Origin: an uncultured Planctomyces sp.
GTDB taxonomy: Bacteria; Planctomycetota; Planctomycetia; Planctomycetales; Planctomycetaceae
Direction: 5' to 3'
Length of the DNA: 64,000 bases
Assembly (NCBI GenBank): GCA_937904325.1
Contig: CALGTK010000187.1
Location: 1-64,000, forward strand
Shown here: in pieces, positions 27,808 to 37,131 of the stretch
Position numbering within the stretch: position 1 is the first letter of the stretch
How the letters are laid out: every line of letters starts with the position of its first letter
Program-made: the position numbers and the translations under genes
Notes under the pieces: model-generated
What the model saw: only the letters and a program-made list of their open reading frames with translations
The model's database searches: none
Told to the model about the DNA's origin: nothing

Positions 27808-28681
27808 ATGAGACATCGCATAATCCGATCCAGGCATCGATTTGCGGGAGCAAGGATCAATGTCGTCGTGATGCTCCTGATTCTTGCGATACTTGCTGCA
27901 TTGGGCCTGCCCGCCGTCCAGCAAGCCCGGGAAGCTGCTCGACGGTCGACGTGCAAAGGCCGACTGAAGATGATTGGCCTCTCGCTGATGAACTACCATG
28001 ACGTTCACAGGACGCTGCCGCGTGGGGTTGTGGTGTCTCAGGTTCCCACGCCGTCCGGTGGAAACCACCTCGGCTGGGTCTATCAGATCCTTCTGTACCT
28101 GGATTCCTCGCCATTATTCGAACACTTTGATTCTAATCTCGACATTACGTCAATCGGCGCCCGTTCCAACTCGGTTATGGCTGCCGAAAACGTATACCTC
28201 ATTCGATGTCCCAGTGACTCGTCTTGGTGCAGCGTCTCCGGACGGCGGCTGCACTTTCTGGGCGGGATCTGGCAACGCTCAGAGTGACCTCATGGCATTC
28301 GTGGATCCAATGCAGGGTGGAGCAATTCCCACAATTCCTTTGTTTCAGATTCTCGGCACGACGCGTAGCGGTGTCGTTAACGATCCGACTGAAAACCCAT
28401 ACGAAGGAAACCTTGGTCCTGGAGCGGTTCTTTGGGACTCAGCACCAGGCACGATCAGAATTAACAAGACCATCGCTCGCCTCGACGGAACTGATACCGT
28501 TGTGCCAATGTCCGGCGAATACGAAGACAAAACGACTGTTGGATTCAGTAGCTGGCACTCCGGCGGAATATTCGCAGGTCTGGGTGACGGCACGGTGCGA
28601 TTTCTTAATGAGAATATCGACGTGGACATATACCAGAACCTGTCTCGACGGTCCGACGGGCTGGTGCTTGGCGATTTTTGA
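27808..28681 (+). pseudogene. DUF1559 (pseudopilin-type) gene with a frameshift
   Basis: The N-terminal part (27808 to ~28230) reads [21 protein letters not shown] and onward to [11 protein letters not shown], the typical start of DUF1559 proteins. The frame then shifts by one base at about 28228-28232 (a duplicated T in CGTCTTGG would explain it), and the second frame continues [20 protein letters not shown] to the family-typical C-terminus HSGGIFAGLGDGTVRF (H-x9-DG). Reconstructed length is about 290 residues, which fits the family. The prepilin motif G-FTLIE is missing: the sequence reads [11 protein letters not shown], without the Glu5. Either a true pseudogene or one sequencing error plus a divergent leader. 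Confidence 0.75.
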
Positions 28682-32589: not shown

Positions 32590-33093
32590 ATGCCTGTTCG
32601 ACTCGGTTATCTGTTGGTGATTGTTATCGTCGGCTGTCGCGGCGCAGTGGACCAGGATATGGACGGTTTCGCCGCTGCCGGAATCACGATCAAGCAGAAT
32701 TCGGCAGGCGAAATTTACTGGGTCGACACGGCCGGAGCGGACTTACCCAATCACTTCTGGAAGACTCTAATCGAATTCGAACACATCGAACAACTAGCGC
32801 TAACCGGGAGCCTTGTCACCGATGCTGACCTTCCTCAACTGACTTCTCTGCATACGCTGCGGAGTCTGGATCTTTCCTACACGCGCATCACGTCGTCGGG
32901 CCTGAGCGTCCTGTCCCGCATGGAAGACCTGCAGACTCTGTCGTTAAACGGCATTTCTCTGGATGAAATGGCCATTGAGTCGCTCGGCCAGTTGACCCGG
33001 CTTCAATCGCTAAGTCTGATGGACTGTGGACTTTCCGCGGAAGAAACGGTGAAAGTGCAAAACGCGTTGCCTGCGTGCCTTGTCGTACGGTGA
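32590..33093 (+). CDS. Leucine-rich-repeat lipoprotein
   Basis: A 167-residue protein. A short hydrophobic N-terminus ends in IVIVGC, a probable lipobox with Cys16. From about residue 65 it contains LRR units: TSLHTLRSLDLSYTRITSSG, then LQTLSLNGISLDEM, then LQSLSLMDCGLSAEE. The protein is probably anchored in a membrane and exposes a small LRR surface for binding a protein partner. ATG 32590 is used rather than the in-frame upstream start inside the pheT end because the signal begins there. It follows pheT by 13 bp. Confidence 0.65.
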   Translation: MPVRLGYLLVIVIVGCRGAVDQDMDGFAAAGITIKQNSAGEIYWVDTAGADLPNHFWKTLIEFEHIEQLALTGSLVTDADLPQLTSLHTLRSLDLSYTRITSSGLSVLSRMEDLQTLSLNGISLDEMAIESLGQLTRLQSLSLMDCGLSAEETVKVQNALPACLVVR

Positions 33094-33301
33094 CTTCGAG
33101 ACCGCAGCACCCGGCAGACCGCATAGGGGCTTCATCGATTGAGACGATTTCTGTACGATAACTCAACGTTTTTTTGAAGCATTGCCGTGACAGGTTCGAC
33201 TGCCGGTCTCTGGCATGGGCAGAAAGAATTCAGAGTCAGAGACAAGATTCGGCGCTCGTTATAACGGTGAACCAGATGGCTGTTGATGGAGGAACCTGCT
33301 G

Positions 33302-33859
33302 ATGCTTGATCAATTCGCGACTGGCGAGTCTGCCGGTGCAATTGCGCATCGGATCCTCGTCATCGAGAATGACGCTGACCAGGCTGCCGAACTTAGAGAT
33401 CTGCTCCAGAAACACGGTTTCCAGGTGCAGACTGCGAAGGATGGAGGACAGGCTCACTCCGCTTTGCAAATGTACAAGCCGGACTTTGTTATCACAGGAC
33501 TGATGTTGCCAGGTGAAACGGGCTACGAAATTTGCGAACGCTTCAAGCAACGCAACTCACAGATTCCAATTCTGGTTCTAACCGAGATTACGCTCGAAGA
33601 TTCACGAAAACTTGCGACGCGAGTCGGCGCCGACGGTTACATGACGAAGCCATACACCGCGTCAGTGCTGATCAGTCAGATCTCCGAAATCGCTCAGCAG
33701 GTGTGGGACCGGACTCACCTCGGTAAGAATCAGGAAGAAGGTCGAGTTCGATTTAATTGTCGTTGCGGAAAACGTTTCAAAATGAGCCCCAAGCATCGAG
33801 GTCGGACACTCACCTGCCCGGATTGCGGCGAACCATTGGTCGTTCCTCATCACGATTGA
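33302..33859 (+). CDS. Receiver-like protein without phosphoacceptor Asp, fused to a zinc ribbon
   Basis: A 185-residue protein. Residues ~16-130 fold as a response-regulator receiver: acidic pair in ILVIENDAD (Glu22, Asp24), Thr94 in LVLTEITLED and Lys116 in YMTKPY are kept, but the phosphoacceptor position is Gly66 (DFVITGLMLP, codon 33497-33499) instead of Asp. It cannot be phosphorylated there in the classic way. Residues ~148-180 are a zinc-ribbon: NCRCGKRFKMSPKHRG then TCPDCGEPLVVP, a Cys4 MJ0042-like finger frequent in planctomycetes. No DNA-binding output domain. It is followed by an FHA-domain gene. Confidence 0.82.
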   Translation: MLDQFATGESAGAIAHRILVIENDADQAAELRDLLQKHGFQVQTAKDGGQAHSALQMYKPDFVITGLMLPGETGYEICERFKQRNSQIPILVLTEITLEDSRKLATRVGADGYMTKPYTASVLISQISEIAQQVWDRTHLGKNQEEGRVRFNCRCGKRFKMSPKHRGRTLTCPDCGEPLVVPHHD

Positions 33860-33932
33860 CACTGACTGAGTCGGCAACAAAACAACTCAGACCACCGTAA
33901 GTAAACTACCCGGAACGAAACGAGGCATCTGG

Positions 33933-34568
33933 ATGACGTCCAGGCTGATCATCATGACCGGAAAACACCAGGGCAAGAAGATGGCCTTGGTTGAAGGTTG
34001 TAAGCTGGTTATCGGTCGCGACGAAGGCGTTGCCGTTCGGTTGGCGACTTCGGAAGTCAGCCGCCGTCACTGCGCGATTCGAATTCGTGAAGGAGTAGCA
34101 ACGGTTGAAGACCTTGGCAGCCGCAACGGGACTCAGATTAATGATGTCACTATTGCCGATAAGACGGCACTACAGCCAGGCGATGTTCTGCGAATCGGGC
34201 CGATGCTGTTTCAGTACGAAGTCAAAGTGAAGGCGACCGCAGACGCCAGCAAAGACACGTCAGCTGAAATCGAATCAGAAACCGACGAGGTCATCGTCAA
34301 AGAGAGTACGGAAGACAGCATTGTCAACTGGCTGGCAGAGGAAGAGCCAGCTGCTTCTGACACCGACACTGTGGTCGGCAAGACCGATCCGGCCGCGGAA
34401 CACTCTGCCGCTGACTCGGGAATGACCACCGAAGAAGACGAGGGCGGAAGTGGCTCGTCCGAGTCAGACGGTCCGGACGTTCCACCACCATCAAAGCAAG
34501 AATTCGATTCAATAGCAGAGGAAGCTCAGGACATAATTCGGCGGCATCTCAAATTGAAAGATCGTTGA
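33933..34568 (+). CDS. FHA-domain protein with acidic tail
   Basis: A 211-residue protein. Residues ~22-95 are an FHA domain: KLVIGRDEGVAVRLATSEVS, RRHCAIRI, and DLGSRNGTQINDV, with the Arg of GRD, Ser and His positions, and the Asn of NGT needed for phospho-Thr recognition. The C-terminal ~110 residues are highly acidic and Ser/Thr-rich with a final basic helix. The family binds phosphothreonine made by Ser/Thr kinases, so it may report kinase activity. It starts 73 bp after the receiver-like protein, so the two probably work together. Confidence 0.85.
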   Translation: MTSRLIIMTGKHQGKKMALVEGCKLVIGRDEGVAVRLATSEVSRRHCAIRIREGVATVEDLGSRNGTQINDVTIADKTALQPGDVLRIGPMLFQYEVKVKATADASKDTSAEIESETDEVIVKESTEDSIVNWLAEEEPAASDTDTVVGKTDPAAEHSAADSGMTTEEDEGGSGSSESDGPDVPPPSKQEFDSIAEEAQDIIRRHLKLKDR

Positions 34569-34772
34569 TTTCAATCGTTCATTCCGCCGAAGCATCAATG
34601 ATGGAGCGATGTGCCAAACCGTTGAACTGGAAATTCCCGGCAAAGACAGTCCAATATTGGCCGCTCAGGATCGATAAGAAATTCAGAATGCAATTCGATT
34701 GAGCAGAACGTTCGACAGACACTAGCCTTGAGCCGGCCGCTCAAAACCAGGTACCTTAAATGCAGGAAAGCC

Positions 34773-35316: not shown

Positions 35317-37131
35317 ATGGTTCGACAAGCCGCGGCACTTCTTACCTGGCTGTCAGTCTTCACATCCTGTCACTCTATTTGTCGAGCTGACGATTCCTCT
35401 GCATTTCACGGCGAGTTGAAAGAGCTGGCTGAGTACTCGCCGATCAGCACGTCAATCGGTGTGACTCGGCGCGGCGTGGCTATTTCCGCGTTCCTGACCA
35501 ACGGCATGCTCGACGTGAGGAGCGATCGAACACGAATTCTGGTCGTCGCCAACCTTGCACCGGATTCGCCTGTCAGCAAGCGACTGGTTTCCGAATGGAG
35601 CGACTTGCTCTCTCGCCGCTCCTTCGAAGCGAACAAGGGCGAAGTTGAGATAGGCATTGTCCCCTTCGCGAATCCTGACCACTTCGAAACAGCATTGGCG
35701 GACAGTGACAAAGATAATACTACCGCCAAGTGGGCTTCTGAGTTTCCGCCAACCGGTGCTGCCTATAACGACAAAAACAATTCAGAACGTCACTATCTCT
35801 GGCGATGGATTGGGATGCTGGCTCCGGACATTGTTATTGTCGTCAGAGAAGGAAACGTCGATACGCTGGTTGTTCCTGAGACGCTCCCGTTGAACCGCAT
35901 CGCGGTCAATGCTCGGTTGCCGATACGGACGGCTGATTCAGGTTCACTGGCAGACGCACTGACAATCGGAGAAGCAGCGAACATTGGTCACGTACCGTCC
36001 GTCGAGTTTAGAACTTCAGGTCGCATGCCGCTGCTACCTGAATTCGTACAACTCGCCACGTCGATCCGATCGAAGGCTCGTACAGAACTTGTTCGACGCA
36101 AGGACCGCAGCCCGATCGAAGTGGCAAGCGAGCTGGCTCAGGTCTATGGACACAATCTTAAATCCGTAGCCTACATTCCCGCGTTGGCGTTGCTCGGACG
36201 TGTGCGTCTTTCCGAACTGAAGAACGACGACAGCCACCTTAAAGACGTACTCAAGATCGTCGCCCCGTACGCCAGTGGTAAAAAGTCGAGCCTTGGATCG
36301 CGGCCAGGCGGCAGCACGCTGTCCGGGCATTTGATCTTCGGAAAACTGTCAAAGGCAACTGGCGACGAACGCTTCATCAAACTTGCTCGGACCGCCGCCG
36401 ATCTTGGCTTCGACAATGATGGCAAACTTCGTGAGTCCATGCCGTTTCACAATGAGATGAGTGATGCAGTTTTTATGGGCACACCAATCCTCGTCGAGGC
36501 CGGTTACTTAACTGGAGAAACGAAATACTTCGACATGGCCGACCGGCATCTGCAGTTCATGTTGAATCTGAATCTTCGCAACGACGGACTGCACCAGCAT
36601 TCGCCGCTTGATCCTGAGCACACTGCGTGGGGGCGAGGAAACGGATTCCCGGCACTCGGTCTGGCACTTTCACTTTCTGATATGCCGGTAGATAGTAAAT
36701 ATCGACCATCGATGGCTGCCGCTTATCGCAACCACCTGCTTGCGATGATCGATCATCAGGATGAGATGGGGATGTGGCACCAGATCGTCGATCATCCGGA
36801 AAGTTATCGCGAGTTCACTGTCACCTGCATGACGACATTCGCAATCATTCGTGGTCTGCGCAACAACTGGCTTGACCGTCAGACGTTTGAACCGTTCGTG
36901 CAGCGGGCGTGGGAATCGATCAAGTGTCGGATCGGCCGGAATGGAAACCTTGTCGACGTTTGCACGGGAACCGGCAAACAGAAAAACCGACGCGCTTACT
37001 GCGACCGTACGGCAATCCTCGGCAAAGACGACCGCGGTGGAGCGATGGCTCTGATGGTTTCAACCGAACTGGCTTTTGCGGTTCGGGAAAAGTCCGTCGA
37101 ACTGGTGGAGACCGGTGATCGTTCCCGTTAG
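35317..37131 (+). CDS. Secreted GH105-like glycosidase fused to an M14-like N-terminal domain
   Basis: A 604-residue protein with a likely signal peptide. Residues ~30-240 show a pattern like zinc carboxypeptidases of family M14 (PFANPDHFETALADSD, FPPTGAAYNDKNNSERHYLW, RWIGMLAPDIVIVVREG), but the expected zinc-binding H-x-x-E and final His are absent, so it may be catalytically dead. Residues ~300-590 are an (alpha/alpha)6 barrel of GH105/GH88 type: HNEMSDAVFMGTPILVEAG, HTAWGRGNGFPALGLALSLS and MGMWHQIVD. Such enzymes hydrolyse unsaturated uronyl residues left by polysaccharide lyases. Domain calls are by motif only. Confidence 0.62.
   Translation: MVRQAAALLTWLSVFTSCHSICRADDSSAFHGELKELAEYSPISTSIGVTRRGVAISAFLTNGMLDVRSDRTRILVVANLAPDSPVSKRLVSEWSDLLSRRSFEANKGEVEIGIVPFANPDHFETALADSDKDNTTAKWASEFPPTGAAYNDKNNSERHYLWRWIGMLAPDIVIVVREGNVDTLVVPETLPLNRIAVNARLPIRTADSGSLADALTIGEAANIGHVPSVEFRTSGRMPLLPEFVQLATSIRSKARTELVRRKDRSPIEVASELAQVYGHNLKSVAYIPALALLGRVRLSELKNDDSHLKDVLKIVAPYASGKKSSLGSRPGGSTLSGHLIFGKLSKATGDERFIKLARTAADLGFDNDGKLRESMPFHNEMSDAVFMGTPILVEAGYLTGETKYFDMADRHLQFMLNLNLRNDGLHQHSPLDPEHTAWGRGNGFPALGLALSLSDMPVDSKYRPSMAAAYRNHLLAMIDHQDEMGMWHQIVDHPESYREFTVTCMTTFAIIRGLRNNWLDRQTFEPFVQRAWESIKCRIGRNGNLVDVCTGTGKQKNRRAYCDRTAILGKDDRGGAMALMVSTELAFAVREKSVELVETGDRSR

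Follow-up and report, generated by a model that had tools for sequence, protein, structure and literature searches.

A receiver–zinc ribbon protein and an FHA protein form a conserved gene pair of the Planctomycetaceae, with recurrent loss of the receiver's phospho-aspartate

Introduction

Pseudo-receivers, receiver domains from which phosphotransfer residues are missing, account for some 6% of the receivers in bacteria, and a 2025 review calls the way in which they are switched a mystery (PMC12632262). Their typical replacements are Asn for the second residue of the acidic pair, Glu for the phospho-Asp and Arg for the Lys (PMC12632262), and a 2015 survey found that Gly accounts for 11% of the substitutions in aspartate-less receivers, with no characterised structure carrying Gly (PMC4395418). 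On the other side of bacterial signalling are the self-regulated proteins DgcB, GarA and OdhI, whose FHA domains can bind phosphothreonine in the very protein to which they belong (PMC6733907). We describe here a two-gene locus that combines such known parts. It lies in a stretch of 64,000 nucleotides from an uncultured Planctomyces sp. (contig CALGTK010000187.1, positions 1 to 64,000, forward strand; "the window" below), and it encodes a receiver with a C-terminal zinc ribbon, followed by an FHA protein. Neither FHA nor zinc came up in a word search of the main texts of PMC12632262 and PMC4395418, and targeted searches of an open-access library, which leaves out most subscription journals, gave no description of a receiver–zinc ribbon/FHA pair.

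How does this locus compare with the described systems? With the pseudo-receivers (PMC12632262, PMC4395418) it shares the receiver fold and the replacement of two residues, the phospho-Asp and the second of the acidic pair, and the same Glu, Asn and Arg replacements occur in its family; it differs from them in its zinc-ribbon output, its constant FHA neighbour and the fact that most of its homologues are true receivers. The OmpR/PhoB-type response regulators have the same fold and are the best structural matches, but the window protein has neither their DNA-binding domain nor their Asp. The FHA protein is like GarA, OdhI and the Bdellovibrio DgcB (PMC6733907) in having the consensus phosphothreonine-binding residues and a flexible segment with a conserved Thr, but that segment follows the FHA domain rather than preceding it, the likely partner is the receiver, and the motif in the window deviates from the common one.

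Results and Discussion

The receiver and FHA genes are a conserved pair

A profile scan of genome contigs gave 80 receiver–zinc ribbon loci. At 76 of these an FHA gene adjoins the receiver gene on the same strand (one of them is a fused gene), and of the four loci without an adjacent FHA gene one, L120, ends shortly past the receiver. Counted by genome, 73 of the 76 receiver-bearing Planctomycetaceae genomes have the FHA gene alongside and in the same orientation; two more keep it non-adjacent (unlinked in G163, a one-contig genome, and on different contigs in G035), and the last, G383, has no FHA at the chosen threshold. Since the FHA profile used (A3) matches FHA proteins in most genomes of the class at E ≤ 1e-25, we chose to draw the line for orthologues at about 1e-43, where the matches at or below that value form a cluster, and to count in addition one truncated but adjacent match, in G405. 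FHA without the receiver occurs (below), and the receiver without FHA was never clearly seen. Receiver and FHA are a real conserved unit. A sequence-only reading of the window had identified the second gene as an FHA gene and suggested that the two could be a new signalling unit; the identification was correct (Table 1), relatives do have the neighbouring FHA gene, and the idea of a unit is upheld by this pairing and by the fusions described below.

Receiver matches at E ≤ 1e-30 were present in 79 of the 398 genomes of the class that were searched, all 79 in the window's family; the best eight candidates per genome were scored, which makes presences more certain than absences, and a search with wider scoring again gave no strong match in several of the genomes lacking the receiver. 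As far as searched, the unit is confined to one family, the Planctomycetaceae. Most of the named records among the 80 loci belong to Planctomycetaceae or to unspecified Planctomycetota, and some metagenome-assembled genomes bear odd labels (Kuenenia and Rhodopirellula, for example). General synteny could account for the pairing only in part, in that the remaining window neighbours are almost never conserved at these loci outside the window's genus; yet rsmD, an rRNA methyltransferase gene, lies 3' of the pair at 37 of the 80 loci (it is absent from the window locus).

Paralogues join all the parts in one chain. The window's own genome encodes a 427-amino-acid paralogue (G000:C66; L065, 915-2198, minus strand) that consists of receiver, zinc ribbons and FHA, of which a Pfam search confirmed the receiver and FHA domains and matched the zinc ribbon weakly, and long frames resembling this fusion are found in other genera too. 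At the Asp position the receivers of the fused proteins carry Gln, Lys, Glu or Ser, and the only Ser among the 80 loci belongs to a fused paralogue. Because three parts are fused in these paralogues, the two separate proteins probably form a physical complex. The fusions also bear on a different explanation, in which the ribbon binds nucleic acid, the receiver controls transcription or translation, and the FHA gene is adjacent through shared regulation only. Zinc ribbons frequently bind nucleic acid, and the position of rsmD would suit such a role; the fusions, which point to a physical complex, and the lack of rsmD at the window locus make this explanation very improbable.

The receiver has repeatedly lost its phosphorylatable aspartate

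The features of the two window genes are listed in Table 1. By profile match and fold the receiver belongs to PF00072, and both a Foldseek search with its AlphaFold model (best E about 1e-11) and sequence matches to solved structures gave response-regulator receivers as the best hits. The receiver part of that model is confident throughout most of its length and the ribbon is modelled as four short strands. Site residues were assigned by aligning the protein to four further receivers encoded in its genome. The sequence-only reading, which had the acidic pair, Thr and Lys kept and Gly in place of the Asp, was right about Gly66, Thr94 and Lys116 and wrong about the acidic pair, in which the second position, the one that binds metal directly, is Asn. 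A phosphorylatable receiver has the site Asp and two acidic metal ligands; with Gly66 and Glu22-Asn23 the window protein has the sequence of a pseudo-receiver, Asp66 and Asp23 both being replaced. Metal binding in the receiver pocket is unlikely because of Asn23 and Gly66. The ribbon, on the other hand, has four Cys in zinc-ribbon spacing and likely binds zinc, although its zinc-ribbon matches in Pfam are all sub-threshold. As had been noted from the sequence, no DNA-binding domain is found in the 185 residues; an NCBIfam search gave no specific name.

Table 1. Features of the receiver–zinc ribbon and FHA genes in the window
Feature	Coordinates	Strand	Remarks
Coding sequence, 185 amino acids, receiver domain and C-terminal zinc ribbon	33302..33859	+	
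Receiver domain, residues 17-127, (beta-alpha)5 fold	33350..33682	+	PF00072, E 1.3e-22 (match over residues 18-127); AlphaFold confidence (pLDDT) mostly >90, as block means
Glu22-Asn23 at the acidic pair (no acidic residue in second place)	33365..33370	+	Asp23 in 68/80 homologues
Gly66 (GGA) at phospho-Asp position	33497..33499	+	80 homologues: Asp 69, Glu 7, Gly 3, Ser 1
Thr94 (kept) and Glu95 at T+1	33581..33586	+	T+1 is Ala in most homologues
Lys116	33647..33649	+	Lys in 77/80; the 3 with Arg all lack Asp66
Cys4 zinc ribbon, residues 149-182 (C153, C155, C172, C175)	33746..33847	+	Cys invariant in 54 homologues
Coding sequence, 211 amino acids, FHA adaptor, low-confidence (probably disordered) linker, C-terminal helix	33933..34568	+	
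FHA domain, residues 1-98	33933..34226	+	PF00498, E 2.4e-17
Linker motif EDSIVNWL (family consensus DDDIAxWL), short predicted helix	34311..34334	+	I130, W133, L134 invariant in 48
Candidate phospho-Thr element of the linker, SDTDTVV (SDTTIV in the family consensus)	34356..34376	+	
C-terminal helix, residues 194-210 (consensus SVAEEAxDIIRRH)	34512..34562	+	

Is the missing Asp a peculiarity of one sequence, or a mark of the whole family? It is neither. Five homologues from the same genus (85-95% identity) also have Gly or Glu at position 66, and the receiver dN/dS (non-synonymous to synonymous rate ratio) against same-genus homologues is about 0.03-0.06 (a simple Nei-Gojobori count in which some dS values are high), which indicates that the Asp-less receiver is under strong purifying selection. 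Chance or pseudogene origin is ruled out by these two observations. Asp is nevertheless present at 69 of the 80 loci (L142 of Thalassoglobus neptunius KOR42 is an example), so the unit is not defined by a phosphoacceptor-less receiver, and this part of the sequence-only reading had to be given up. The loss is real, recurrent and lineage-specific: with 12 of 81 rows non-Asp, the fewest changes on the best tree, which was built without the scored columns and has many weakly supported branches, is seven. Asp23 is missing in 10 of the 12 non-Asp rows versus 3 of the 69 Asp rows (Fisher 9e-9, uncorrected for relatedness), and Lys116 is replaced by Arg solely in three non-Asp rows. Glu95 is found in the window genus and in two relatives, L079 and L080; because the latter carry it along with Asp, Glu95 may have come before the Asp loss, the tree being open at that node.

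The codons at position 66 within the genus are GAA/GAG (Glu) and GGA/GGG (Gly), which fits a path from Asp through Glu to Gly. That a single step separates the Gly codons from the Glu codons, that Glu replaces Asp more often than any other residue does (7 of 11) and that phosphomimicry by Glu is discussed in PMC12632262 all favour a receiver which, with Glu or Gly66, is constitutively active in a phosphomimetic-like state and is controlled only by protein amount or partner availability. We regard this explanation as unlikely, if less so than the one based on nucleic-acid binding.

The FHA protein and its linker

The window FHA protein has the phosphothreonine-binding consensus (GR, SRxH, NGT, N), and its residues G28, R29, S43, R44, H46, N65, G66, T67 and N70 are 92-100% conserved in 76 FHA homologues. 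In its structural model a confident FHA domain is followed by a linker of low confidence, with a short helix where the WL motif lies, and by a helix at the C-terminus. Of 74 FHA sequences, 71 have an I..WL-type motif in the linker, against a mean of 0.6 and a maximum of 4 in 200 shuffles, and 59 have a T-x-hydrophobic-hydrophobic motif there, for which shuffling gave a mean of 3.1 and a maximum of 8. Both patterns were picked after the sequences had been read and the shuffles ignore relatedness, so these comparisons are illustrative. A stricter version of the I..WL-type pattern matches 34 of 76 FHA sequences.

A possible signalling mechanism

The most likely reading of these features is that the pair is an adaptor that reads Ser/Thr phosphorylation, with a receiver partner that has repeatedly turned phosphorylation-independent. 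The two genes would be one signalling unit of the Planctomycetaceae, with the FHA protein as its core, reading phosphothreonine placed by Hanks-type kinases and possibly also a threonine of its own linker. The output of the receiver would be its zinc ribbon, which would contact a protein (or nucleic acid), in place of a classical DNA-binding domain. Most genera have a receiver that looks phosphorylatable, and there the unit could join aspartyl-phosphate and Ser/Thr-phosphorylation signals; in the window genus and, independently, in other lineages a pseudo-receiver may be fixed in one conformation, which would leave the FHA input alone switchable. Taken as a whole, an FHA-centred unit whose partner receiver repeatedly becomes a pseudo-receiver is the explanation towards which we lean, by a modest degree. 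The stronger proposal, that Ser/Thr input through the FHA adaptor has repeatedly replaced aspartyl phosphorylation as the switch and left the receiver as a docking module, is tentative and on balance doubtful, though it seems to us less so than constitutive activity.

Several observations weigh against the FHA-centred explanation. FHA is found without the receiver in 11 genomes (in G326 it is at a contig edge, and G018 has a fused receiver protein), so not every role of the FHA protein requires the receiver. Some consensus phosphothreonine residues are missing (by eye) from the FHA domain of the fused paralogue, so that FHA reading is not kept in every case. In the window genus SDTDTVV stands in place of the common DTTIV, and the genus falls outside the T-x-hydrophobic-hydrophobic pattern. 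Finally, joint loss of Asp66 and Asp23 was not significant in a tree-aware test, which had four independent pairs on supported branches and low power.

At one locus, L168 (4591-5340, minus strand), a short degraded receiver/zinc-ribbon remnant that scores 33 bits with the receiver profile lies upstream of the FHA gene, the one such case among ten FHA loci without a separate receiver. This remnant, the 11 genomes above and the repeated loss of Asp could all mean that the FHA gene is the functional one and the receiver a decaying accessory, Asp loss being an early step of the decay. The low dN/dS within the Asp-less genus, where the Cys4, Thr, Tyr113 and Lys are mostly kept, and the retention of both genes even where they are non-adjacent speak against such decay, and we judge it improbable, somewhat more so than constitutive activity and less so than the nucleic-acid explanation. 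The Asp, Glu and Gly homologues, the constant neighbour and the natural fusions are a ready series for testing how pseudo-receivers are activated, and could show whether the FHA partner substitutes for aspartyl phosphorylation.

Genes around the pair

No kinase gene is evident among the recurrent neighbours (most clusters were judged from sequence); the window's genome has about 50 Pkinase matches. A promoter and terminator scan of 33090-34760 gave nothing clearly above shuffles, and because there is no forward terminator-like site between the two genes there is weak evidence that they form an operon. An SDR gene is near the pair at 24 loci. A glycoside hydrolase family 88 gene (PF07470, E 6.2e-36; 35317-37131) lies downstream in the window and is beside the pair only in the genus. 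At L079 (6028-7756) and L080 (7307-9095), both on the minus strand, a second FHA-containing frame is near the pair. Farther upstream in the window, at 27808-28681, two overlapping open reading frames in different frames have, by eye, the appearance of a single DUF1559/prepilin-like protein that a frameshift has divided.
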